A program made the position numbers and the translations under genes. A stretch of DNA of 33,190 nt, from assembly GCF_000002865.3 (NCBI RefSeq), contig NW_001865077.1, positions 301,094-334,283 of the forward strand, written 5' to 3'. Below, piece by piece: positions 5,642 to 25,926 of this stretch. The stretch's first letter is position 1. Every line of letters starts with the position of its first letter. The notes under the pieces were generated by a model, which was given only the letters and a program-made list of their open reading frames with translations, was not told the origin of the DNA and searched no databases. Source of the DNA: Monosiga brevicollis MX1. Lineage: Eukaryota > Opisthokonta > Choanoflagellata > Craspedida > Salpingoecidae.

Positions 5642-8600
5642 TTATGAGCTCGTCACAGAGCTGCGGGGAACCTTGCCTTGTGATCCATCCGTCTTCATGA
5701 CCATCATTAGACCCTGTGCATCGGCCTCACCCATGGGAACCAAAACCTCACCGGCCATCACCGTCAACAACCCCTTGCCCGAAACAGAGCGCGTGGCCTT
5801 GAGAATGTTGGACTTTGGCGTCGCAGAAGCACCGCGCCCAGCCGCCGGCCGCGGGCGTGACGGCTTGGTTGGGGGCACGGAAGCCCCTGATGCAGCGCTA
5901 GCGCTGTTGGCTGGCCGAGTTGGCGGTCGCGCCGCAGCTACAGGGCCCCCGGCCGGCTTCTCTGGCTTGCTGGGCGGCCCTGGACGTGTTGGGGTTTTGG
6001 GAGAGTTTGTTTGCCCCAAACTTGATGGCGGCTTGGACGGCATTTGCGGTCGCGCCGGAGGCACCGCGGTGGCGGTACTGGCCTTACGTGTTGGGCGCTG
6101 CGCTGGTGTTGGCGTTGACGGCGACGGCTCCGACAGCGCCACCGGTGCTGTCACTGGGGCCTCCGGTCGGCTGGGCACACCACGTCGCGTTGTTGCTGGT
6201 GAGGACTTTCGGGCTGGCTTAACCACTGCCGGTACCACAGGCGGCTTGGTCGGGACGTTCGCCGGCTTGCTGGGCAACACGTTGGGCTTGGATGGTGTCG
6301 TCACGGGCTTTACCGGTGGGGTACTCGGCGTGGTTGCTGGCTTGCTAGGAGCCGAAGCAGGTTTGATCGGTGCAACTTCCGGCTTGCTGGGTAGCACCGC
6401 GGGTTTGGTGGGTGCCGCTTCGGGTTTGCTACTCGGCACCACCGCAGGTTTGGTGGGTGGCGCTTCAGGTTTGCTACTCGGCACCACCGCAGGTTTGGTG
6501 GGTGGCGCTTCAGGTTTGCTACTCGGCACCACCGCAGGTTTGGTGGGTGGCGCTTCAGGTTTGCTACTCGGCACCACCGCAGGTTTGGTGGGTGGCGCTT
6601 CAGGTTTGCTACTCGGCACCACCGCAGGTTTGGTGGGTGGCGCTTCAGGTTTGCTACTCGGCACCACCGCAGGCTTTGCAGACGCTACGTCCGGCTTGTG
6701 GGCCGTTGAGGAGAACTGGCTGGGCAGGACAGGCGGCTTGGGTGGCGGAGGTACAATTGCTTGAGGTTGTGCGGGCACACTCCCCGAGACATTGCTCTGG
6801 ATGTTACTTGCAGGTGAGGTGTGCGACTTGGCAAAAGCCTTTGGCACGGGGAGTGCAAGACCAGGCATGGCTCCCGGAGGTGGCAGGTTAGCTGCCGAAG
6901 AGGCTCTCGAAGACGAATTGGCTGATACATCATCTGCACTCTTCGCGGAAGACGGCGGCACCTTGTGCGTCACCAATGGCGGTGCTGCTGGAGCCGGGAC
7001 CGGGGCCGGGGCCGGGGCCGGGGCCGGGGCCGGGGCCGGGGCCACCACCTTGTGTGGTGTGGCTGGTTTGGCGGGCTTGGTTTCCGACAATGCCGAAGCT
7101 ACACCAGATGATACCGCGGCTGCATTCGTGACGGTTGCAGAAGACGCGGGTATTTTGGGGACAGCAGATGGCTGAGCCTCGGTTTCAGCTGGGGGTGCAG
7201 GCAGCGGCGGAGCAGCGGGCGGTTGCAAGGCCATTGCCTGTGGCTGCGGCTTTTTGGTTGTTGTTGGTGTTGGTGTTGTTGTTGATGCTGGCGCTGGAGG
7301 TGTTGGCTTTGGTTTGGGAGCAGCAACAGACGTTGGCGTCGACACGGGAACGGAGGTGGAGCTCTGGATGGAACTTGGTGTTTGACCTGCAGCCTCATTG
7401 GCTAGCGTTTGCGAGTTGACATAACGATGAGCTGAGCCCTCGTGTCCCGCAGCCTTGAGTGCAGCTGCGGCGGCTTGCGCCTGGCTGCGTGCTGCCGCCA
7501 CGGCCACTGCCGCAGCTGCACTCTGTGCTTGAGCCACAGCGGGGCTGGGCAACAGCTTTGAAGGTTGGTCGTACTCATCATTGTTTGCCATCGCCACAGT
7601 CTTGGTTGTTGCCGGAAGACTAGGCGCTGCCTTGGATGGTGGGGGCGGCCGATGGCGAGTTCCACCACCATTTGCGTCGTCACTAGAAGTGACAGCGGTC
7701 GTCGCCGCTGCAACAGGAGTACTCTCGACTTGCTTCAGTGTCACGTACGTTGACGGAAACCAGCCCTCGCTTCCACTCGGCAGGCGACCTCGTGCCCAGC
7801 CATCCTGACGCTCCTCCAGCACGCTCACACGGTCCCCCGCCTTCAAGCTCAAATCACCAGCTCGCATGGGGTTGTAGGGATACATGGCTTGATACGAGTA
7901 CTCGGCTTCTTGTTGGTCCTTCCGCAGACCATTCGCTGCTTCGGAAGGCACAGTGTTGGCGGCACCACTGCGCACAGACTCCTGTCGAGACATGATGGCT
8001 TCGTACAAAACGCTGGCATTCTCGGATGGTGGGCCGTCGTAGCGTTGAGGTACTTCGTATGAGTTGCGGCTAATCGAGTTGGATCGCCCCTTGCTGTCCG
8101 TGCCAAAAATACAGTGCTCTGGAAACAGCCCTTGCGTCCCCTTGATCGTACCGCGGACCCAACCATTGCCGAGACGCTCAAGCACGGTAACCTGCTCACC
8201 CTCAACAACCGTCAGCTGCCCGGTGCCAGCAGCCTCAAACGACTGAATGACACGAAAGGCTTCGCCTTCCTCGTCGCCTGTGGGGCGAGCAGGTACGCCA
8301 GGCCCAGCCACCGTGGCCTCCTCATCAATGTCACCATATGCTGGGTCATTGTGTGCATCAACCATGGTGTCACGCTCTTCGACATAGGAAGCTGGAAACC
8401 AGCCCTCGCGTGCACCCAGCGTGCCTCGGTACCAGCCGCGGTCCGTGCGCTCCAATACGCACAACACATCCCCTGCTTTGAATGAGAGACGATCCACAGA
8501 CTCATCCGAGTAATCGTGCTGGGCCACTGCCTCGCATAATACTGTTTCGCCAGTGCTTGACAGTTGTGGCTGGGCGTGACTGCGAGCGGCACCTCCGGGA

Positions 8601-11600
8601 ATGGGCGCCACGGCCGCCTTTTGCGAAACGGTTGTTGCAGGTCGAACGGCAGGCACGGCGACGGTGGCAGCTGGCGTAGACTTGGGTACGGCGGAAGTTG
8701 GTGCTGGCCGCGCATAAGTTGGATTGGCATAGTCAGGATTACCACGCGGCGAAGGCTGAGGCGGCGTGCGCACCACCAACGGCCGTGCCGGTACCTCAAC
8801 TGGCCTTTGTGGAACCAATCCTGCCGTGGTCGTCGGTGCCGGTCGGGGTGAGGCAATTGGCTTCACTTCGGGTGTGCTGTGTTCGCCTAGATCTGGCGAA
8901 CTATACACCGCTGAGGCAGATGGCTGGCGATAAGCAGGGTTGGCATTCATGGTCAATGGCTCTTTGGACTGCGTGCGCGCTGGTTTGCTCTGCTTGCTCT
9001 TGCGCCGGCAGCAACAAAAGTATACCACAACCGCTACCACGACCACTCCCCCTCCAGCAGCGCCGGCAATGATGGCGATAGGCAGCTCGCTGCCGCTGCT
9101 GGCCGACGGTGCCGCAGTGCTCGGAGCAGCCGTTGAGCCTGTGTCGGTGGGTGCTGATGAACTGGCCGCGAGATCCAAGGCTCCCAAGTTGGCCAAGCCT
9201 GAAATGTTCCGCAGCACGGCCAAGAAGTCGACGTCCGTTGCCAACTGAAGTACCACATCCCGAAATTGGCCTATCGTGGTTGTGGATAGGAATGTGACGC
9301 GCGTGGTAACGCTCAAGTCCCCGGTGGCACGCCGGCGTCGAGCCACGGTGCGCACAGTCATGCTCGCGTCCACTACGGGAACGCAGTCGCACGCCTCACC
9401 CAATGCGGCCTGTAAAGCGTCCCGATACGCCACTTGGGCCGCAATGTCAAAGTCATCCATCGTCACCCCTGCAAGCTCCCCGGTCACGTACTGCGTCAGC
9501 CGCGACGGAGCCCGTGTCGAGGTCGTTGCTGGAGCCGGCGTCGTGGTAGGCAATGAGATGCCGACCAGCGCTGCGCAAGCCCTGATGCTAGACCCACGAT
9601 TCGCCGCCAACACAGCAAACGTGCGGCCCGCAACCGTGCCTGCGCCAACCAAAGGCACGTTTTCCACCGCCACGTGCAGACGATTGTTCAGTTCAAGCCC
9701 AATGGCAAGAGTTCCCATCTTGCTGCTCAGTGCACCCACAGCGCAGCCCAATTGGCTCGCTCGGGTGCACGCTGCGCCAGCAGCTGTGACGTTGGCGTAA
9801 GGATCCCAAACTGATCCTGTGGCGGCGCAACCTGCTTCCGTCAATCCCAGGGAGTTGATCACAAAGCGATGATCGTATGTCGTTGGCGTGTTACGCTGAA
9901 AATAGTTGAGGGCCACGTAGGCCAATGTTGGCTCAAATGGCGTTGAAGCAGCCTGCGTCAAACTAACTCGACCCTCAATGGTCCCTTCGAGGGCCACCTC
10001 AACTCGATATGGCTCGACATGGAAGCCTACCGAAGTGCAAAGACGACTGCCATCCAACGCCTCCACGACGAGACTGCGACCAGCCACGCTATTCTTCCCA
10101 AAGAGCGGTAAACCATACACGTCGACTGTCATATCGACCAGCGAAAGGACCACTGTGCTCAAGTCACCCGTGTAGGCGGTCAAGTTTCCCATCTGCAAAA
10201 AATAAAACATTATATCAAAAATAAAAAAAAAATAAAAAAATTCAAACCAACAAGAAATGTGAGCTTTTGAGCCCGCTAACATCGCCCATTCACAATTGCC
10301 TCCCAGCTCTACGAGAAAAAAAAAACCATCTTGGCATAGCTTACCGCAATCTCGCCGTCTACATACGGGTCGTAGAGAGTGCCAGTTGCGCTGGCGGCAC
10401 AGGCCGAACCTGCTGCTTCGGCCGCCGCCGGATCTTGAGGCATGGTAGTCACAAAGGCCCTGTAATATTGGCCATTGAGGTTGTGGAGGGTAAGGACGAG
10501 CCGCGTGGGTGCAAATGGGTTCTGCTGTTTCAGAACCAGGGAGCCATATACGCCGTCGTTGTTCCCCAGGGTAGCCGACAGTTGGCGCTCGTCAATTGCG
10601 TACAGAACGCCGCAGCCCGGTGCACCTGATATGTCGATTGAGATCGACTGCCCAATCACCGAAGCCGGGCCAGATAGGGGCAAGTTCAAATCTATAAATG
10701 AAGCACGCACTGTGCCGTTGATAAACGTCAGCTGCCCATGCTTGCTGCGCAAATCACCAACCGCACAATTTAACTGATAGCCCAAGATGCTGTCGGGTGA
10801 AGACCCTGACCCGCAGGCCTGCGCCGAGGCAGAAGCATTGGCGTTCAAAGGATCAAACACGGGTCCTAAGGCCTCGGCACAATCGTTGGCCATGTTGACG
10901 CCCGCCGATCCCAGCCCCTCGCGGATATAGTAGGACACGCCCACTGTCTGTCCTACCAGACTCGGAATGTGCAGATCCACAACAACCAGCGTTTCGCCTT
11001 CTGCCTCTGCCGCCAGTTGGTATAGCTGAACAGAGCCCAGGATGGCACCACGCAGGTATGCAAAGGCCATCTGAACGTCACGACCCTGATCAAAACCCAG
11101 TGGTGCGCACCAGCGCTCCCCCGTGCTCGGATCGCGAATCAAGAGACCTCGACCCGACACAGAATACAGGCCATAGAGAAAGCGTAGCGGATCAGATATG
11201 GAGGCAGACGAGGTCGCTGGCATGCTGCTGTGCCGAGAACTAAGAGCACCCACGGCACAAATAAACTGCTGCGACGGGCTGCAAGGAGCTGAACCGACTC
11301 CATCCGGGTCAAACGTCGGTCCAATGCGTGGGGCTGCACAAGCTGCGGCCCCATATTGTGCCAGGTCTGGCGCAAATTCAGTGATGGTCCACTCGAAATT
11401 GGCCAATGAATCGAGTCCCGCTTGAGTTATAACCACCTCGGCGTCAACGCTGGCTTGGGACATGGTCACGGTCCCCGAAACGCCATTCATTGCAATATTC
11501 GCCTTAACCAGTCGGCCAGGTTGTAAATCGGGCACGCACACGCCTGAGGCATTAACCACCATGCCTGCCGCACATGCGTAGACACACGTCTCCAGCGCAG

Positions 11601-14600
11601 AATCCCATGCAAAACGGCATCCCGCTCGACAAGATCGAGGGGTTCCGTCACCGCAACCTCCAGGGGCACACAGATAGCTGCAGCCCATACACTGCCCCGT
11701 GGTGACGTTGTAGACGCTCTCAGGGCTGATGGCACTGCAAGTGTCGAAGCACTGGCCGTTATAGTCCCGGTGCCGGCACATGCCCGCGCACCCGGTGGCA
11801 GACGCATTGGTGCACTGTCCTGCGCATTTTAGGTCGCATTCTTCGGTCAACGACGTGACCTCGCGACCACAGTATGGTCCCAACGGTTGATTGCCCACCA
11901 TCAGGAGAGCGGTGCTTCTCAAGCCACGACTAAAACCCGCGGAATAAAGCGGCACGTTACTGCTGAAGTGAAGATGCATGGTGCGGGGCGGAGCTGCAGC
12001 CACGGTCACAATATCAGCCGAAGCGCCAGATTCATGCTGCAATTGCACGCCCGACACAAACGTTGTGTTCCCGCTCGTGGCCACTCGCAAGACCAGTCCG
12101 TCCTGCGTCAACGAGAGGACCGTGCCCAAAGCCAAGCCATCCTCGAGCAGTGCCGTCACGGTCGCTCCGAGGTCGACCATCATGGCATCAGAGAGCACAA
12201 GCAGCACCTCCAGCGGTGCCAGTGCAACCTGACCGAGTTGACTCGACAGGTCACCCACCGCGCAGCCGCCGGGAAGTGAGGTGGAGCACTGGCCCACGCT
12301 GGCACATGCGGTCCCCGAGCTGCCGCCACTGCAAACATTGAACGGGTCGTAGGGCGCATAGGTTGAAGTTGGACAGGCCTCCGCCCCGCTTCTGTCAGTG
12401 TATGATGAACCATCAAGGCTCTGCACGAAGCGCCAGTCGGCGGACGATGTTGAATGAGGCCTGTTGTAGGTGAGCTGATTGAAGATAGCTGTCTCAACCA
12501 AACCATCGTAGGCTAGCTGTTGCAGCTGAACGTGGCCTCGAAGAGCAGCGGAGGAGTTGGGTGCATTGTAACCCATAACTAAAGCTTGCCAAGGGATGGT
12601 GGGCACTAGGTTGGCACATGCTATGCTGCCCTGCATGCCCCATCGCAGAGACCGAAAACTGGCTTGCTCTAAACCAAACAACGACAGTGTTGTCACCGTG
12701 ACGCGTGTTGACCCCCCAACGTCTGGCAGGCTCATGAAACTGCCCAGCGCTCCGGCCTGATCAGCAAGTGCAAATGGTTGGAAGCAGTGCCATCATTGAG
12801 TTGCGCCGGAAGAAAATTGCTAACAAGTGCACAGAACAATAACAAAAAGCAAAATAGACACGGTCTGACAGGCAGGCAACTGACCTGATAGTTGAGAAAG
12901 CTTGTTACGGGGGTGCCACTCAGGACGTCATGCGGGGAGTATATGCCTCCGCTCAGGTCGCACACATCTTCACCAAGCTCGAGCTCGGGAACGGGCAGTT
13001 CGTGCAATGTTAGACTCTGCAGTGCTTCAGTGGCAAGGGCTCCATCTACCTCGACGGTGGTCGGATCAAATGGGCTCGGCTGTGACAACGAAACGGCCCA
13101 CCCACTATGAACAGCACTAAAGCTGCGTGGTGATACCAGGCGAATTGTCGCACACGCCATGCGCGCAGCCCCATTGTTGGCAGCATGAATCGTGATGGAG
13201 CGGTTCAGAATGTCGGGCAGTGACAATTGCACGTCAGTCACGATGAGCTGAGTCGGGCGGGTGGACAAAGCAATTGTGCCATGCTTGGTCGACAAGTCGC
13301 CCGCCTCACAGTCAACCACGCTTTCTCGACACTGCTCCACGTAAGTCGAGCTGCCGGTGTTGACCTGAGTGGGGTTGTAGTGCCCACCAGTAGAAGCACA
13401 CATGCTGGAGCTGCCCGCGACACGATCATCGCCCGCGCCATTAACATGGATGTGCCATTTGTGATTGATGGTATCAGCAATATCAGTGGCATAGCGCAGG
13501 TCTACAAAAATCTGGAGCTCGGCTTCGGGATCATCGGCCAATTGCCGGAAGTAGATGTTGCCCACAACCACGCTGTCGAAATGGGCCACGGCTGTCAGTG
13601 TTGCAGCAGCCGGCAACGCCCGGGCACACGCCAAAGGTTGACCATTACTATTGATCAAGGCAAAAAAGTGATGCATAATGCTACTACTGTAGTAGAGTGT
13701 TGCATTGCCATTCACCACAGATTCTGAAAAGCTATACAGTGAACCGGAGGAAGCTGCACCCGTGCTTGTCCACAACGTTTTCTAAAAAGAAGAAGTGAGC
13801 AAACCAAAGACCAACCAAATGAGGGTGCAGAGCATGGAGACAAAAGATGGATACGCAAAAAGCACTGTAGCGCTTGGCTTGAGGACTTACCGTGGTAACA
13901 TCGCCGTCTGTCGAGGCGACAACGCACTCATCGAGAAACGCGTTTGGCAACAACACGAGTCGCAGTTCGGCATTGGCTGCCACCCCAGCGCCTTCAACGA
14001 CAAGAGCGTCTGCCGGCGAAGCCTGGAGAATCACAAAGTCCATGTTGGCAGCGGCAGAGACAAAGGAAAGGTGGGCCTCCAACGGCGTGATGACACGCTC
14101 GACTTGCAACGTCGCACAAGCCAGAGACTCGAGAGTCGTATCGTCCTGCAACAACAAGTGTGCCCCCCCAATCGAGGCCTGTCCCTCCAGCGGGAGCATG
14201 AGGTCAACTCCAACCTGACTCGGCAGTGCTCCGGTGGGTGCAATCGTCAATGTTCCCAACTTGCGAGCCAAGTCACCAACAGTGCAACCAATTTGCTTAA
14301 CTCCAGGACCGCAGGACGCCGTAGCGTAACCACAGCTTCCGTCAGTGCAGGTATTAAATGGGTTGTACACGAGGGACGAGTTGAGGTCTGAGGGACAGGA
14401 GCTGAGGGATGGGTCGAGAAGATGCCAAGAAGCGGTGGAAGCAGGAGCATCCAAGGCAGCGTAAGCCAGCTGCACAATCACAAACGATTCCGACCGTGGT
14501 TGGCCAAGAATTTGAGAAAATTGCACTAATCCTTGAATGGCGCCGTAAAAGCGAGTTGAAACGGCCTTTAACGTCTGTCCGCGCAAGTCGATGGTCGCAC

Positions 14601-17600
14601 ACGCCAGCCGCGGGCTGCCCGCCGTCACCTCGTGCAACACCACGCTCCGGCCCAGAATCGTCGACGGCCCAAACAACGGCAGGTTGTAGTCCACGTAGCT
14701 CGCACTCACACTGCTCTGCCCCGCAAAGCTCCCGTGCTTGCCCGACAGGTCCCCAACCTCACACTGGTCCACCGTCAAGCCGCTGCTGCTGCACGTCTGA
14801 CCCGCGCCATACGGATCATAATGGCCCTGCACCGCGGCAGCACTGCACTGCGCCCGCCCCGCTGTGCCACCCACCAGATCCGCGCTCGGCACCGGCAACA
14901 CATGGACATGCCAGCCCCCAACGCGCGAGGCCAACCCGTCGAGGTCGACCGACACCGTCGTCGGCGCTCCCGGATACGCCTGGCGAAAGACAATGCTCCC
15001 AACCACGCCCTCCATCGAGAATACTGCGCGTGCTTCCCGCGGTGACATCACACGCAAGCTCGCGCACGCCTGCCGTGCCGCAGCACCATCTGGACCGTGC
15101 AACACAATGGACCGACTGGCCACGCTCTCCGTACCAGACAGCGGCAGCTCCAAATCCGTAAACACGGACCGCGACGTCGGCAGCGTCGCATCGGCGCTAA
15201 TACTCAGGCCACCGTGCTTGCTATACAAATCACCCACCTCGCAGCCAGTCTGAAGCACACCCGCACCACAGCCCGAGCCGTAACCACATGCTTCTGTCAA
15301 GCATACTCCAAATGGGTTGAAGTGCCCCCCGGCAGTAGCACAATCCATCCCACTGACGGCTGTCTCATGCACATGCCACTTGTGCCCAGAAGTCGCCATC
15401 TGCGACCCATCGCTGTACCGGAGATCAGCTAACACGGTTGTCTCCGCAAACACCAGTGATTCGGGCTGCTGCAAAATGATGTGCCCCAATACAGAGCCCC
15501 GGAATTCGGCCACCGACGTCAGCACTTTCACATCGGAGCCCCAGCCAATGGTCGCACACGCCAGCCGCGGGCTGCCCGCCGTCACCTCGTGCAACACCAC
15601 GCTCCGGCCCAGAATCGTCGACGGCCCAAACAACGGCAGGTTGTAGTCCACGTAGCTCGCGCTCACACTGCTCTGCCCCGCAAAGCTCCCGTGCTTGCCC
15701 GACAGGTCCCCAACCTCACACTGGTCCACCGTCAAGCCGCTGCTGCTGCACGTCTGACCCGCGCCATACGGATCATAATGGCCCTGCACCGCGGCAGCAC
15801 TGCACTGCGCCCGCCCCGCTGTGCCACCCACCAGATCCGCACTCGGCACCGGCAACACATGGACATGCCAGCCCCCAACGCGCGAGGCCAACCCGTCAAG
15901 CTCGACCGACACCGTCGTCGGCGCTCCCGGATACGATTGACTAAAGCTCACCGTGCCAGATACCCCTTCCATGGAAAATATGGCTTCGGCACTTCGCGGT
16001 TGCAAGACATTCAAGCTCGCACATGCCTGCCGCGTTCCTGAACCAGCGGGCCCATGTAGCACAATAGACCGACTGGCCACGCTCTCCGTTCCAGACAGCG
16101 GCAACTGCAGGTCCGTGTACACGGCCCGGCTCAGCGGAAGGCTTGCACTGCTTGCCACGCTCACAGCCCCGTGCTTACCGGTCAGATCTCCAAGCTCGCA
16201 ACCATACTGCTGCTGGCCCTCACCACAACTGGCGCTGTAGTTGCAAGCCGAACTCAGACACACGCTGTACGGGTTGTAGTGGCCCTGTGCAGTCCCGCAA
16301 TCCATGTTGCTCACAGGCGATTGATGAACGTGCCATGAATGCCCAGAGGTCGGGCCCATTGACATGTTGCTATAGCGTAAATCCACCACAATGGTCGTCT
16401 CTGCAAAAGCAATGTCGCGCGGCTGTTGCAAAGTAATATGCCCCAGCACACTACCCTTGAACTCGGCCACAGATGTAATCAGTTGCACCTCAGGGGCCCA
16501 GCCAATGGTCGCACACGCCAGTCGCGGGCTGCCCGCCGTCACCTCGTGCAACACCACGCTCCGGCCCAGAATCGTCGACGGCCCAAACAACGGCAGGTTG
16601 TAGTCCACGTAGCTCGCACTCACGCTGCTCTGCCCCGCAAAGCTCCCGTGCTTGCCCGACAGGTCCCCAACCTCACACTGGTCCACTGTCAAGCCGCTGC
16701 TGCTGCACGTCTGACCCGCGCCATACGGATCATAATGGCCCTGCACCGCGGCAGCACTGCACTGCGCCCGCCCCGCCGTGCCACCCACCAGATCCGCACT
16801 CGGCACCGGCAACACATGGACGTGCCAGCCCCCAACGCGCGAAGCTAAACCACTGATGTTGGTGGTGACGGTGGTGTGCGGTTCAAAATAGTTTTGTGTA
16901 AAGGTGATAGAGCCATAAACCCCCTCCATGTCAACCAAGGCAGAGTAGGACCGGGTTGGCTGGGTGATGATGGTCGCACAGGCCAGACGCAGCGAGGAGA
17001 GCGAGCCCTGAAAGACGACGATGCTGCGATTGACAATGCTGTTGAGTCCACTCAGAGGCAGAGCTGTGTCTGTGACAAATACGCGTCGCTGCTGCGGCGC
17101 CACATCCAAGTACCCATGCTTCAAATCCAGGTCTCCCACAGAGCAGGTGCCAGAGGAACAGGGGGTTGAGACGCCGGCTGGCGAGTAGCGGGAGCCAGCT
17201 GAGAAGCATCGACTGCTATCACGAACGGCGTCGATGCCAGTGGGACTGTCACCGATCATCCAGCGATGTTGTTTGGTGGAGCTGACGAGCGCACTGACGT
17301 AGGAATACTTTAAAAACAGCTGGGTGTTGGCAGTGGGATCGTCTCTGGGTTGGCGCATGATAGCATCGAGGCGAAAGTAACTGCCCGTGTCAACACGAGC
17401 CATCAAAGTTGTCATTGGCTGAAACACACGGAGACCCGAGACTGCATCAAGCTGAACGCGTCGTATTTCGCTGCAAGCTACTGGGTTTTGATTGACGTCA
17501 AGAAGAAGGACCGCGTGTCCGATGATGCTTTGCGCGCCTGAGAGAGGCGCAATGGTAGAAGGCAAGAGGCCAGAGCGGCATAATTGGTTGGTGGCGCAAA

Positions 17601-18198
17601 AGGCCTCTGGTAGACGCCCGAGAGACGTGTCGAGATCCCCAATGGCGCAATTGGAGGGATCGGCAGGGGTACACAGCGTTGAATAATTGCTGGCGGCACG
17701 TTTGTTCTCTGGGTCATATCGACCACCAAGAGCTGCTCGGGTACACCGATCGGTGGGAGAAAGGGTGTAATCGACAGGATACTCGGTGATGTACCATGAG
17801 TAAGGTTGTGCGGTCAGTGGCCCGTCAGCCCCGGTAAGGGAGGCGTTGACAAGCACCTTGCCAGCGGTTTGCTGAAACTCAACGATGCCCTGTATCCCGT
17901 GCGTCGCAAAATGGGCCACAGCGTCGCAACTCGAGCACGGAGCCTCGGGCGTCGCTCCTGCTTTGAAGTGAAGTCCACAAATATATGAGAGCCCTGCTTC
18001 AGCTATGAAAAAAAAAAAAAATGGCAGGCTCTACAATGGGGCTCAAACAAGGTCAGAGGGGCGACACTCACCGGCTGCAGGGAGCAGAAGCGAGCACAGG
18101 AGGAAGCAGCGCGCGAGCACTTGGACGTGGTTTGGCGGTGTGGACCGCCTTGCTGAGGGCCCCAGCGCTTTGGCACGCGTTGAACTGTGCGACATCAT
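5642..18198 (-). CDS. giant SOD-repeat transmembrane protein with SH3 tail
   Basis: Five exons on the minus strand: 18198-18072, 18002-13891, 13781-12885, 12756-10345 and 10192-5642 (stop TAA at 5644-5642). All introns are GT..AG; the first is phase 1 and the rest phase 0, giving 4032 residues. The start is the first Met of an ATGATG pair. It leads into a hydrophobic core (CFLLCSLLLPAA, residues about 31-42) that reads as a signal peptide split by intron 1; the 5' end is the least certain part. Residues about 44-2720 are roughly 16 Cu/Zn-SOD-like modules interrupted by a Cys-rich block. A juxtamembrane domain follows, then a helix at 2887-2908 flanked by CCCRRK, tyrosine motifs, three SH3 domains, a Pro-rich region and a degenerate SH3-like end. 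Animals and oomycetes have copper-only SOD repeat proteins; I infer a surface receptor or scaffold that combines superoxide or copper chemistry with SH3/phosphotyrosine signalling. No characterised orthologue is known to me. Confidence 0.85.
5645..5806 (-). other. degenerate SH3-like C-terminal domain
   Basis: The last 54 residues (about 3979-4032) keep SH3 landmarks: an Ala near the start, L-x-V-x-AGE before the RT/n-Src region, a DG turn and G-x-VP-x-SxV at the end. The binding-site Trp and the ALYDY tyrosines are missing, so it may be a structural remnant that no longer binds PxxP ligands. The similarity is weak and seen by eye only. Confidence 0.45.
6406..6675 (-). repeat. 45-bp tandem repeat in Pro-rich region
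   Basis: Six units of 45 bp encode KPEAPPTKPAVVPSS or a close variant, between about 6406 and 6675. The central copies are identical at DNA level and the outer ones differ slightly. Each unit provides a proline-rich stretch with Lys that could serve as a polyproline-II SH3 ligand, so copy number may set ligand valency. The opposite strand has long open frames here that are only mirror images of the repeat. Confidence 0.95.
6992..7043 (-). repeat. GGGGCC hexanucleotide repeat (Pro-Ala codons)
   Basis: On the plus strand there are about eight head-to-tail GGGGCC units. On the coding (minus) strand they read as alternating Ala-Pro codons within the tail. The plus strand could form a G-quadruplex. 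Such runs are prone to expansion and contraction and are hard to sequence. Confidence 0.9.
7736..8542 (-). other. three SH3 domains in the receptor tail
   Basis: SH3-1 covers residues about 3067-3122 (8542-8375), SH3-2 about 3161-3212 (8260-8105) and SH3-3 about 3282-3335 (7897-7736). Each has the ALYDY-like start (AVAQHDY, VIQSFEA, AMYPYNP), the RT-loop acidic patch, the conserved binding-site Trp (DRGWYRG, GNGWVRG, DGWARG) and the G-[WL]-FP-x-x-[YC] end. SH3-2 lacks the ALYDY tyrosines, so its ligand choice may differ. Linkers contain YxxP-type tyrosines (YEVP, YDGP). Proline-rich ligands lie downstream in the same tail, so intramolecular binding is possible. Confidence 0.9.
9013..9084 (-). 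other. single transmembrane helix of the receptor
   Basis: Residues about 2886-2908 form an uncharged Ile/Ala/Gly/Val segment (PIAIIAGAAGGGVVVVAVVV). It is followed at once by YFCCCRRKSK, a triple-Cys/basic stop-transfer sequence. The basic flank sets type I topology, with the SOD array outside and the SH3 tail inside. The three cysteines are candidate palmitoylation sites. The preceding Thr/Ser/Pro-rich stalk (about 2855-2885) would be a likely site for O-glycosylation. Confidence 0.9.
11530..11875 (-). other. Cys-rich furin-like block between SOD modules
   Basis: Roughly 110 residues carry about 23 cysteines in C-x(2-3)-C and C-x(4-10)-C spacings. Examples are CDLKCAGQCTN, CAGMC, CMGC-x3-C and CRAGC. 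This resembles the furin-like / growth-factor-receptor Cys-rich pattern of receptor tyrosine kinases and other choanoflagellate surface proteins. It sits after SOD module 12 and before module 13, so the array is split into a copper-competent N-terminal part and a degenerate membrane-proximal part. Confidence 0.7.
14591..16842 (-). repeat. 957-bp internal superrepeat with near-identical blocks
   Basis: Blocks starting at 14591, 15548 and 16505 are almost identical for about 338 bp and spaced exactly 957 bp apart (319 codons). Copies at 14591 and 15548 stay similar for a further 45 bp or so. Each block encodes the same stretch from GGWHVHVLPVP to LACATI; the few visible differences are all silent. 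The sequence between blocks encodes a second, less conserved SOD module, so the array reads A-B-A-B-A (modules 3 to 7). Recent duplication or gene conversion is likely. Short-read assemblies could miscount the copies. Confidence 0.9.
18072..18198 (-). other. exon 1 of the receptor: signal peptide
   Basis: The exon encodes a basic leader of about 28 residues followed by a Leu/Cys-rich hydrophobic core ending in PAA. It stops at a strong donor (G|GTGAGT) with phase 1. The 69-bp intron at 18003-18071 carries a T-rich stretch and ends in CATAG. Joining the phases gives Ala-Glu-Ala-Gly, a plausible signal peptidase site just after the core. The frame stays open further upstream, so an earlier Met is possible, but the residues there look random. 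Confidence 0.6.
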
Positions 18199-19906: not shown

Positions 19907-21692
19907 TCAAGATCGCTCGGCGATGAGATTGAGGTCCCGGGAAAGATAAGGATTATTGAGAACGAGGAGCCGCTTGCAAGCCAAGGGAAGACGGTTGGCT
20001 AGCAGCACCCGATGGTCATGGCCAGCCTCGGCATGCATGGTTCGTGCCCGTGCCACACAGAGCGCCTCCAGCGTGGGCACGCCTGTCTCGGGTAGGCCCG
20101 TCTGTCATGCAAGCAAACATATACGGGGGTGAAGGCAGCGTCGGGTATCAGCCATGGGGGTTGGTGGTCGTGCTGCTGAACAACCAAGCGGTTAAGGCGA
20201 GATCTTACGTGGAAAAGATCCACGGCAAGCAAGACTTGCTCCACATCGCCGTGGCCCCGCTGGCGTGCCACGGCCAAAGGCGAGGCATCAGAGTTGTTGT
20301 GGATCTAAGAACGTAATACCACAGAGAAATCATCAGGCCATGCCTTGGATGAGGGCATGAGGAACAAGGGTTTTTTTTTTTTTTTTGGCGACCACAGGTC
20401 AGCGCCAGGTGCCATGAGCCACTGACCGTAGGGTTGGCTCCCGCACAGAGCAGCAGGGACGCAGCTTCAGCATTGCCTGTCGAACAGAAAGGTTTATATG
20501 AGAGGCACGCTTGGCAAGCACACCCGCGAGCCGTGTCTTCAACTTGGGATGAGAAAGTCTCAATGACAGCCCACCACAAAACATACCAGCATAAGCGGCC
20601 GCTCGAAGACAGGTCCGAGACTCGAGACTCTGAGCATTCACGTCGGCACCGGCCTCGATCAGCATTTTAACTATGGAAAGCATTTGCGCGGCGGTGGCAT
20701 GCAAAGCCATTCGTGACACCAAGCCAATCGAGAAACCGAGAGCGAAAGAGCAAGCAAAGGAAAAGAGGGTTGGCACAGTCGTAAAAGCCATCTGCAGTCC
20801 ACCAGTGGCATACCAGCTTGGCGCTTGACATTGGGTCGACCGCAGATAAAGTGCAGAATGGTTTCGCGGCGTAGATTTTTGAGATCAACGGTAGCATCGT
20901 GGTGAATGAGAACGCGCATGCAACCGACGTGGCCAGCACGGGCGGCGAGGGCCAATGGGCTAGAGTGGTTGCGGCAGAGGGCATCCACGTCGCAGTTGTA
21001 CCGCAACAGGGCCTGACAAGTCTCTGCATGACCACTGGAGAAGCGAGAAGGCATTTGGAAAGTATGAGCAGAGGCTGAGCGGCAAGGAACGATGGCAAAA
21101 TGGTTTTGTGCTTGCGGCTTGTGATCACTCGTGGTGCGACCCAAGAGCGAGGGGAGGGGAAAACGCACTGGGCAGCGGCGGCGTGGAGAGGGTGCCAACC
21201 CCGAAGATCCGCCTGCGAGAAGGTAGCACCAGCGCGAACAAGAGGCTCGATGCAGCGAACCAAGCCCAGCTGGGCCGCGAGGTGTAGCGGGGCAATGCCG
21301 GCAAGGTTGGCAAGGGAGGTGTCCGGGCCATAGCCAAGGAGATGCTGCAGGACATCAAGGGCGCTCTCTGGGGTCAGGCAGGTCTGGGCGCCAGCGAGCT
21401 GCGCGTTGGCCATGAGAAGCGATGAGTTGGCATCGAGATTTGCAGCTTCCTCGGCGGCGTAAGCTATGGCGCAGTTGCGAAGGGCAAGGTGAAGGGGCAG
21501 GTTGCCACTCTCATCGATGGGCTGATCGCGGAGTTCAGGTCTTCCGCTGAAGATGGTATCCACCGTGGCTGTATCTCCCGTGTTTAGGGCGTTGATGAGG
21601 TCCTGGCGAGCGAGCGCGTTTTCGTGGGACTGAAGCGCGCGTGTGATGTATGCCGGGTCGAGCTGACTCCAGCTTCCAAACGATCCTGCCAT
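19907..21692 (-). CDS. ankyrin repeat and SOCS-box protein (ASB-like)
   Basis: Six exons on the minus strand: 21692-21169, 21034-20814, 20670-20587, 20476-20427, 20304-20209 and 20101-19907, with GT..AG introns of 107-143 bp whose phases agree, giving 389 residues. The start is the first ATG after an in-frame stop. About seven ankyrin repeats are visible, among them APLHLAAQLGL, HPLHAAAAHGH, SPLALAARAGH and VKMLIEAGADVNA; several become complete only after splicing. The last exon (326-389) holds TLEALCVARA, an exact match to the BC-box consensus [APST]LxxxCxxx[AILV], and then LPLA, close to the Cul5-box LPxP. Animal ASB proteins recruit substrates through ankyrin repeats and bind Elongin B/C and Cullin-5 as E3 ligase adaptors; I infer the same role here. 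The substrate is unknown. Confidence 0.8.
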
Positions 21693-22215
21693 GCCGGGAA
21701 GTTTGCCAATTTCCAACGCCACGGCGCTCGAGTGCTCGCGCGTGGTCCAGCGGTGCCGATCCGGTGTCGGTCAGGGCAGGATCGGCGAACCACAACCATG
21801 TGCTGCCAGAAGAAGCGCCAATCTGGACGGAGGAGCACACCGGTTATAGCGTCGTGCTACAGCTCCTGGGCAACTGAAATCAAAGAGAAGGCCAAGAAGG
21901 ACGGGCCGGGGCAAGGGAGCTCCCCGTATTTCTGCTCACCCCAGCACGGGGTTCGCAACCGGTTGCGCCCAAAGTCCATGCACAACTCCGCAAAGCCAGC
22001 CAGCCGCGTGTCCACCCTACGTTTCCACCTTTCTCTCCACGGGTCGATCGACCCCCACAGCTCGATCACAACTGCTACTCCTACGCCTCCTCCTCACGTG
22101 CATCCGCGGCAGCGAGCGAGCGGATCAGGCTTTGAAGAGTCCGTCGTCGTGTGCCCACTGCCACTCTCTCTCTCTCTCAAAAAAAAAAAAAAAACTGTTG
22201 AGAGAATGTTATTAT

Positions 22216-24953: not shown

Positions 24954-25562
24954 TCAACGACGGATGTGTTGCTTCTTGATCTTGCCACCGTTGGAGAGGG
25001 TCAGTTCAAAGGACGGGCAAACCGTCTGCAGATAGGTCGCGTCACACAGAATGTTGTAAATGCGCTTGCCCTGATCGTCCGAATTACCGCCTCCCTTTGT
25101 TCCACCGCCATCCTCGGCGTCACCACGGCGCTGTTTGCCGTTGCTGGCCTGTCGCCCCACCAGGGAGCGTGAAGAGCCTGGTCGCGAGGGCACCTGGCTG
25201 CCAGTGTTGGAGCCCAGCGAGTCACCCAGTTTGGGCGATACACCCTGCGTGTACAGCACGGGGACATAGACGGCCTTGGCCTTGAAGGCGCTCGTACCAC
25301 GCGCATCCATATCGGCCTGGCCTGGCACATCGCACAGTCTTCCCCGCTCCGAGGCTAGATCCAACTGTGCCGTCGCCTCCATGTCCAACAAGTCTGCCAA
25401 AAAGTCCATAATGTGCCGCAGCCGGCAATCCAAGTTGATCAGCGCGCTCTCCTCATTGCCGTACACGACTCGACAAAACTGCGCCCCGAGCGCATTGTTG
25501 CCACCGCCCCCACTGTTCCCGGCGGCATTCCCGCCGCCCCCGTTGCCCCCATTGCCACTCAT
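24954..25562 (-). CDS. CXorf65/C22orf15-like small protein
   Basis: A single open frame of 202 residues on the minus strand, with no intron needed. Start ATG 25562 leads into a Gly/Asn-rich N-terminus; in-frame Met codons further up would add a Leu/Ser run encoded by a GA repeat and were rejected. After the low-complexity start comes FCRVVYGNEESALINLDCRL, then a helical segment (HIMDFLADLLDM), a short Leu/Asp stretch (AQLDLASERGRLCDVP) and, after a Ser/Gly-rich loop, a conserved-looking end (YNILCDATYLQTVCPSFELT). The order of strand, N/D-C turn, hydrophobic helix and L-x-L-x-x-E-x-G resembles the ubiquitin-like animal CXorf65/C22orf15 family, whose function is unknown. The assignment is from memory and moderate at best. 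Confidence 0.6.
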   Translation of the reverse strand: MSGNGGNGGGGNAAGNSGGGGNNALGAQFCRVVYGNEESALINLDCRLRHIMDFLADLLDMEATAQLDLASERGRLCDVPGQADMDARGTSAFKAKAVYVPVLYTQGVSPKLGDSLGSNTGSQVPSRPGSSRSLVGRQASNGKQRRGDAEDGGGTKGGGNSDDQGKRIYNILCDATYLQTVCPSFELTLSNGGKIKKQHIRR

Positions 25563-25746
25563 CCTCCTTCGCTTGGCGTCCTCAAACCCCTGCCGCAAAC
25601 GCACGCTCTCAAAATCCGCCGCGCCGCTCGCTCTGTGCCGCTGTCCTCGCTGATGCGCGAGAGAGGAGTTTGAGAGAGAGAGAGTTTGAGAGAATTTGAG
25701 AGAGAGTTTGAGAGAGTTTGAGAGAGTTTGAGAGAGAGAGAGAGAG

Positions 25747-25780
<34 letters not shown>

Positions 25781-25926
25781 GTTTGCTGTTGTCAAGCAAG
25801 TCGACGAATGTTCTGACAAACATCATCGAATGCAGTCAGCATAAACTATTCAAGACGCTTGCGCAATGTTATGGAAAAGCCTCTCCCACAACACACACAC
25901 ACTCACTCTCTCTCTTGGCACCGACG
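25563..25926. promoter_or_regulatory. short divergent promoter with GA/CT tract
   Basis: Only 364 bp separate the start codons of two divergent genes. The region carries an interrupted GA tract at about 25658-25778 with TTT interruptions of regular spacing, and a short CA run plus CTCTCTC at about 25892-25915, just before the heparanase-like ATG. A shared bidirectional promoter is the simplest reading; GA/CT tracts can bind GAGA-type factors in other eukaryotes. No core promoter motif is certain. Confidence 0.5.

Follow-up and report, generated by a model that had tools for sequence, protein, structure and literature searches.

The window analysed here is the whole of a stretch of 33,190 nucleotides from the choanoflagellate Monosiga brevicollis MX1 (contig NW_001865077.1, positions 301094-334283), a 33-kb sequence without any N in a 39.47-Mb assembly of 57 contigs. 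The choanoflagellate origin is supported by an UNC18 exon of this genome, in which 47 of 50 residues agree with PDB 2xhe, the UNC18 protein of M. brevicollis. Between positions 18198 and 5642 its minus strand carries a gene in which an array of modules of the Cu-only superoxide dismutase (SOD) type is joined, by way of one transmembrane helix, to a tail bearing three SH3 domains. The gene model and this architecture, which is unusual, are almost certainly real. A splice model drawn from genomic sequence gives a protein of 4032 residues, encoded by five exons with a single terminal stop:

18198-18072, minus strand: exon 1, with the start codon and, at the N-terminus, a hydrophobic segment like a signal peptide (hydropathy highest at residue 25)
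18002-13891, minus strand: exon 2
13781-12885, minus strand: exon 3
12756-10345, minus strand: exon 4
10192-5642, minus strand: exon 5

The four introns (69, 109, 128 and 152 nt) are all GT-AG and their phases are consistent. The stop-to-stop frames at the gene comprise 1649, 1432, 827 and 349 codons, the longest spanning 5642-10591. The first three far exceed 451 codons, the maximum reached when the window was shuffled 200 times with a Markov model; the 349-codon frame taken alone is within the shuffle range and is not exceptional. Exon 5 runs without an internal stop through the second half of SOD-like module M15, module M16, a juxtamembrane stretch, the transmembrane helix, the three SH3 domains and a Pro-rich tail, while its five other reading frames contain 26-56 stops each.

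Two of the modules are split by introns. The halves of M11 that flank intron 3 match profile positions 19-86 and 108-159 and score 27.5 bits when joined, and the halves of M15 that flank intron 4 match positions 5-82 and 101-155 and score 45.4 bits. The profile used for this comparison was wider than the one built from intact modules only (below) and contained neither M11 nor M15. A model of such an origin could have arisen by the wrong joining of a secreted SOD-repeat gene and a separate, neighbouring SH3 scaffold gene. Because M16, the transmembrane helix and the SH3 domains share the 1649-codon frame, and because the halves of M11 and of M15 join up over introns 3 and 4, M15 bridging the junction of exons 4 and 5, this misjoin is rejected as hardly credible. 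An earlier, sequence-only reading had proposed the same coordinates, strand and length of 4032 codons, all correct by the exon and intron reconstruction, and had placed SOD repeats and SH3 tail in a single frame, as is found for M16, the helix and the SH3 domains in one open exon.

The Pfam family Sod_Cu matches exon 2 in six stretches (E 2e-59) and exon 3 (E 5.9e-10), and falls below the cut-off in exon 4 (E 0.0034) and exon 5 (E 0.064). A profile was built from the intact modules M3-M7 and M10 only; the highest score that any of 200 shuffled proteins reached against it was 2.5 bits. It detects 15 of the 16 modules, M11 weakly. Outside the six modules used to build it the scores are 29.5 (M1), 75.6 (M2), 60.8 (M8), 4.4 (M11), 36.6 (M12), 21.0 (M13), 69.2 (M14), 21.3 (M15) and 57.3 bits (M16). 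M9 is undetected by this profile and is assigned from its position only. The array is composed as follows:

16960-17937, minus strand: M1 and M2, SOD-like modules that have lost the copper site (29.5 and 75.6 bits)
14581-16959, minus strand: SOD modules M3-M7, each with a complete Cu-only site (H, H, H, H, R, E, D, C, C; Pfam Sod_Cu 2e-59)
14101-14580, minus strand: SOD-like module M8, copper site lost (60.8 bits)
13611-14100, minus strand: M9, a degenerate module that spans intron 2 and is assigned by its place alone
13137-13610, minus strand: SOD module M10, complete Cu-only site (Pfam 5.9e-10 and alignment)
12595-13136, minus strand: M11, SOD-like but degenerate, interrupted by intron 3 (27.5 bits joined)
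12013-12594, minus strand: SOD-like module M12, copper site lost (36.6 bits)
11518-11910, minus strand: Cys-rich stretch, weakly furin-like (Pfam Furin-like E 0.0066, below cut-off)
10597-11523, minus strand: M13 and M14, SOD-like modules that have lost the copper site (21.0 and 69.2 bits)
10019-10596, minus strand: M15, a SOD-like module that has lost the copper site and is interrupted by intron 4 (45.4 bits joined)
9557-10018, minus strand: M16, a SOD-like module that has lost the copper site and lies in the frame common to the transmembrane helix and the SH3 domains (57.3 bits)

The alignment shows a complete Cu-only set in six of the 16 modules, M3, M4, M5, M6, M7 and M10. All six have the H-x-H motif, the His of GH[YF][ND]P, a fourth His and the Arg, together with the two Cys of the SOD disulfide. 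At the place where a zinc-ligand motif would stand they have E-x-x-D, in a C-E-x-G-D-L context that is also found in four modules of a second gene on contig C42. Loop VII is short, the copper His and the Arg being separated by 7 residues; in SOD1 the two are separated by 22 residues. Residue roles follow SOD1/SOD5 numbering. The His, Arg, E-x-x-D and both Cys are invariant in ten intact modules (six here and four in the C42 gene), an invariance that is partly a matter of definition, as modules were called intact on their His and Arg set, the E being outside that criterion. The E is absent from every aligned copper-less module of this gene and of a third gene on contig C30. The set is lost in the nine other detected modules, among them the N-terminal M1 and M2, and M9 is not alignable. 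An extra Cys pair flanking the former zinc loop is invariant in 22 aligned modules (in the window, 9557-17937), but not in M15, and would presumably form a disulfide in place of zinc. The count of about 16 SOD-like modules given by the sequence-only reading is thus borne out by 15 profile matches and one position, and the Sod_Cu and SH3 profile comparison that it proposed places Sod_Cu above cut-off in exons 2 and 3 and three SH3 domains in exon 5. Its Cu-only SOD repeats are supported; not known to it were the restriction of the copper site to six of the 16 modules, the reported SOD4/CSRP proteins of choanoflagellates and the two sister genes described below.

A profile of 22 modules (13 from this gene, four from C42 and five from C30; M9, M11, M15, two N-terminal C42 stretches and a partial C30 module were left aside) gave 120 SOD-type matches at E <= 0.001 among the sequences of solved structures. 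In the best 60 of these 120, the top match is a two-domain Cu/Zn SOD1 chain, the best single-domain matches are the Candida Cu-only SOD5 entries 5kbk (3.1e-18) and 4n3t (3.4e-18), and the single-domain Cu/Zn SODs rank after SOD5 (best 3ce1, 4.7e-16). At the E position of E-x-x-D, 5kbk has A and 4n3t has E. The profile of the 12 copper-less modules still retrieves SODs, with 1.4e-14 for the two-domain chain and 3.7e-10 for 5kbk. One intact module as the sole query gave weak SOD matches (best E 0.0013). These searches indicate homology to SOD, which is predicted membership and not a demonstrated fold. Some of the modules are probably active as SOD. That the protein might sense or disproportionate superoxide, or bind copper, as the sequence-only reading supposed, is plausible in view of the intact sites.

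The repeat history includes a marked homogenisation. M3, M5 and M7 are identical across 110 residues (431-540 in M3), with 104-108 of the 110 third codon positions alike. At the nucleotide level the tract is about 340-390 nt long, with 92-100% identity in 60-base steps (M3/M5 and M5/M7) and fairly sharp borders, outside which identity drops to about 20-75% per 20 bases; M5 and M7 remain alike slightly further upstream. It covers the copper site, beginning shortly ahead of the first copper His and ending near the last Cys. The pattern fits gene conversion or a recent partial duplication, and an assembly collapse or error could also have produced it. In the module tree 15 of the 20 inner branches are drawn open, so that no order of duplication can be read from it. 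When the intact label is mapped on this tree it requires 6 changes, a number that is equally low in 76 of 500 shuffles, and neither a single origin nor a history of loss of the intact sites is claimed. Relatives in prokaryotes and viruses were also considered and set aside: among 44 loci obtained with pattern-based scans, 37 have one SOD domain (E < 0.01), seven have none by the same profile, and none has more than one domain per frame.

Downstream of the array one dominant hydrophobic helix is found at residues ~2887-2907 (hydropathy 2.65). The N-terminal segment reaches 1.88 and the rest of the protein at most 1.69. The C-terminus is placed inside the cell, since the helix is followed by CCCRRKSK (positive-inside rule). 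The features of this region and of the tail, which is 1.1 kilo-residue long, are:

9101-9508, minus strand: juxtamembrane domain, family not matched (no Pfam match above cut-off)
9020-9082, minus strand: transmembrane helix, then CCCRRKSK (hydropathy 2.65)
8705-8941, minus strand: three NPxY motifs and the first four of seven YxxP motifs (motif count)
8378-8530, minus strand: SH3 domain 1 (Pfam and genome SH3 profile search)
8105-8263, minus strand: SH3 domain 2 (Pfam and genome SH3 profile search)
7739-7900, minus strand: SH3 domain 3 (Pfam and genome SH3 profile search)
5831-7720, minus strand: Pro-rich tail with tandem PSSKPEAPPTKPAVV repeats (23% Pro)
5645-5818, minus strand: weak C-terminal SH3-like stretch (Pfam SH3_9 E 0.035, below cut-off)

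The three SH3 domains are all internal and match Pfam with E 2.8e-35 in exon 5. Bacterial SH3 families of Pfam overlap them and were set aside, as were two viral Pfam families at the transmembrane region (2.7e-4 and 4.6e-4, below their cut-offs); a scan with NCBIfam gave matches below cut-off only. The juxtamembrane domain has a SEA-like look, a reading that was dropped as no family matched above the Pfam cut-off and no second copy was found in the same genome. Pfam matched no kinase or PX domain in exons 2-5 and no FAT-like C-terminal domain. Outside the SH3 domains, seven of the ten tail tyrosines have Pro at +3 (YxxP; binomial p = 9.5e-4 at the Pro content of the tail). Ligand motifs for SH3 are close to shuffled counts, with 5 of class I where 3.4 are expected (491 of 2000 shuffles reach 5) and 7 of class II where 3.5 are expected (115 of 2000 reach 7). 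Only plain PxxP occurs more often than expected (50 times, with 34 expected; 2 of 2000 shuffles reach this), probably owing to the tandem repeat. On the class I and II counts, strong binding of the Pro-rich tail to the protein's own SH3 domains is not supported. The single helix, the three SH3 domains and the NPxY and YxxP motifs of the sequence-only reading all recur here, and its Pro-rich tail stands as a matter of composition, being weak as an SH3 ligand.

The SH2 domain of M. brevicollis crka1 binds phospho-YxxP (PMC5043372). As membrane proteins with YxxP motifs are also on record, the tail is best read as a membrane-tethered, Cas-like scaffold, and a docking role of this kind is slightly favoured. 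The three NPxY motifs could alternatively serve endocytosis of a receptor that captures copper for uptake or storage. Six copper sites with a short loop VII agree with such a receptor, but the catalytic Arg and the E-x-x-D are kept and would not be needed for mere storage, which makes it very improbable.

Two further membrane-anchored SOD-repeat genes are found in the same genome. The first (C42:277846-280992, locus L009) matches Sod_Cu in four stretches (1e-48) and has no SH3 match by Pfam. Its modules C3-C6 are intact; of the N-terminal ones, both without the copper site, C1 scores 5.5 bits and C2 is undetected. By reading, it has one transmembrane-like helix, with some 45 residues of tail, and its 5' side adjoins an assembly gap. 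The second (C30:281231-268632, loci L037 and L038) is one frame of 4200 codons with Ig-like repeats of the bacterial-surface type and Sod_Cu (4.9e-18). It also has a transmembrane-like helix and, in its tail, tyrosine motifs of the YEGV type; none of the five SOD modules aligned from it has the copper site. A frame of 525 codons starting at the end of this gene has similar tyrosine motifs and an SH2 domain at its end (2.6e-8). This SH2 frame is perhaps part of the C30 protein; since it lies in a different frame, that would require splicing or an error in the assembly. If it does belong there, the same type of ectodomain would be joined to two kinds of signalling tail. The sister genes favour a signalling use of the predicted SOD-repeat receptors. 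At E <= 0.001 the genome has 87 SH3 and 114 SH2 matches, so that signalling partners are plentiful and such domains could be gained by shuffling. Two stretches were examined as possible sources of the tail and rejected: by reading, a PI3-kinase-like frame with three SH3 domains (C35:541005-544583, L042) and a myosin/tyrosine-phosphatase and SH3 neighbourhood on C53 show no SOD module.

The loss of the copper site in ten of the 16 modules here and in the five aligned C30 modules bears on a different use of the ectodomain, as a non-enzymatic surface for adhesion or recognition. A stable SOD fold would then bind prey, matrix or cells, the copper sites would be structural or residual, and the tail, Cas-like as it is, would signal adhesion. 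The combination of Ig-like repeats with SOD modules in the C30 gene agrees with this, and copper-less CSRPs are known in arthropods and tardigrades, as is the oyster recognition protein dominin (PMC13017621). A mere scaffold would, however, be expected to lose the catalytic set, which is kept whole, with its Arg and E-x-x-D, in six modules here and in four from C42. The argument loses some of its weight through gene conversion between M3, M5 and M7. On balance we regard a purely adhesive ectodomain as rather unlikely.

An extracellular source of superoxide is plausible, since part of the NAD-binding domain common to NOX and ferric reductases is matched in the genome (1.1e-8), as is p22phox (2.5e-23), and since Nox2-like, p22phox and p47phox-like genes of M. 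brevicollis have been reported by Kawahara and Lambeth (PMC2121648). The frame with the p22phox match (L040 1111-1953, minus strand) has, by reading, a proline-rich end and a WW-like domain. The same oxidase components and this proline-rich C-terminus would allow the SH3 domains to bind the p22phox tail, so that NOX superoxide is turned into peroxide on the spot. Such docking on the NADPH oxidase is quite improbable: a p47phox-like protein is already reported for that role, exons 2-5 lack a PX match, and SH3 specificity is not readable from sequence.

That the protein is exposed at the surface, is loaded with copper, acts as a SOD and docks partners is inferred, and these properties would be combined as follows. 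The gene would encode a single-pass type I surface protein of the choanoflagellate, whose six copper sites would disproportionate superoxide at the cell surface, possibly supplied by the cell's own Nox2-like oxidase. The copper-less modules may serve folding, spacing or ligand binding. Once phosphorylated, the tail tyrosines would make the protein a membrane-tethered scaffold of the Cas type that recruits Crk-type SH2 proteins, PTB proteins and ligands of the SH3 domains. The handling of extracellular superoxide and peroxide, or a ligand held by the array, would in this way be coupled to tyrosine-kinase signalling. The signal could cross the membrane by ligand clustering, or by local peroxide acting on phosphatases or on juxtamembrane cysteines.

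Several observations weigh against this combined mechanism. Ten of the sixteen modules could not bind copper in the manner known for SODs, and the profile of the copper-less modules shows no preference for Cu-only SOD (native SOD5 4n3t 8.3e-9 versus Cu/Zn 3ce1 6.7e-10). Because M3, M5 and M7 are homogenised copies, three of the six intact modules do not give independent evidence of conservation. On the inner side, consensus SH3-ligand motifs are not clearly enriched and no kinase domain is found by Pfam in exons 2-5. Taken together, a surface SOD array tied to tyrosine docking of the Cas type has about an even chance of being correct. The wider proposal, that choanoflagellates have receptor-type SODs in which the same Cu-only array was joined to different signalling tails (SH3 and YxxP here, tyrosine motifs and perhaps SH2 in the C30 gene), coupling extracellular superoxide and peroxide chemistry directly to tyrosine-kinase docking before animals arose, is tentative and would at present be doubted sooner than accepted.

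Elsewhere in the window an ankyrin-repeat frame is found on the minus strand at 20670-21770 (Ank_2 5e-8). A frame at 24957-25835 has a Pfam Il2rg match (2.6e-6) that is just over the cut-off and probably not meaningful.

The predicted ectodomain belongs with CSRP/SOD4. With the CSRP/SOD4/CUSR proteins of animals, Capsaspora and choanoflagellates it shares tandem Cu-only SOD modules, the lost Zn ligand, the short loop VII, the E/D signature, copper-less N-terminal modules and a presumed extracellular location. The E110/D113 signature and the loss of loop VII are described in a review of CSRPs (PMC13017621, 2026), according to which these proteins are secreted or glycosylphosphatidylinositol (GPI)-anchored and have 4-12 repeats, the largest, with 12, being from Capsaspora. 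The present protein differs in having 16 modules, the figure of 4-12 being the range of known members and not a definition, and in being single-pass with a 1.1-kilo-residue tail that carries SH3 domains and YxxP motifs. The words choanoflagellate, transmembrane and SH3 are absent from the main text of that review. SOD4 members with a C-terminal transmembrane domain have been reported in choanoflagellates and Filasterea by Lyubetsky et al. (PMC10416458), in the consulted part of which no tail domain is named. In those parts of PMC7730656 and PMC12784942 that were available, CSRPs are named in animals only, without choanoflagellates or Monosiga. An oyster CSRP is an active SOD and a frog protein is required for tail regeneration (PMC13017621, PMC10416458). 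Candida Cu-only SOD5 shares the active-site set and is the best single-domain solved match of the 22-module profile within the best 60 of 120, but it is a single domain without repeats or a signalling tail.

The tail resembles other systems. BCAR1/p130Cas (in part after PMC5043372) has an SH3 domain, a proline-rich stretch and several YxxP motifs. The present tail shares all three, but is membrane-anchored and has three internal SH3 domains instead of an N-terminal one; because no FAT-like domain was matched by Pfam, the gene is not filed as a member of that family. The transmembrane YxxP proteins PTSG_05573, 12435, 12436, A9VAL3 and A9V449 are likewise from choanoflagellates and have several cytosolic YxxP motifs, and some such proteins carry SH2-like domains or DUF5011 (PMC5043372). 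They differ in their ectodomains, given there as TSP1, EGF, C2, DUF5011 and Cys-rich, with no SOD named in the part drawn on, and the three from S. rosetta are without SH3 (PMC5043372). Tandem SH3 domains are shared with p47phox and SH3PXD2, from which the protein differs in spanning the membrane and in having no PX domain by Pfam, and it differs from a receptor tyrosine kinase in that exons 2-5 give no Pfam kinase match.

The pre-metazoan substrates of FAK, SRC and ABL were called unknown in 2016 (PMC5043372). If the proposed mechanism is true, the gene would provide a redox-linked input to the pre-animal tyrosine-kinase network. A SOD array on a docking tail in a close unicellular relative of animals suggests that CSRPs, which are poorly understood, are able to signal, and makes this a system in which the importance of the copper sites for such a signal could be examined. 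The sequence-only reading knew of no described protein with this architecture, and among the papers listed by searches of the open literature no description of a SOD array with an SH3 tail was found. Compared with the known systems, the CSRP-type ectodomain is already known, and what is new in the predicted protein is its size and its tail of 1.1 kilo-residues, in which three SH3 domains and seven YxxP motifs are found.

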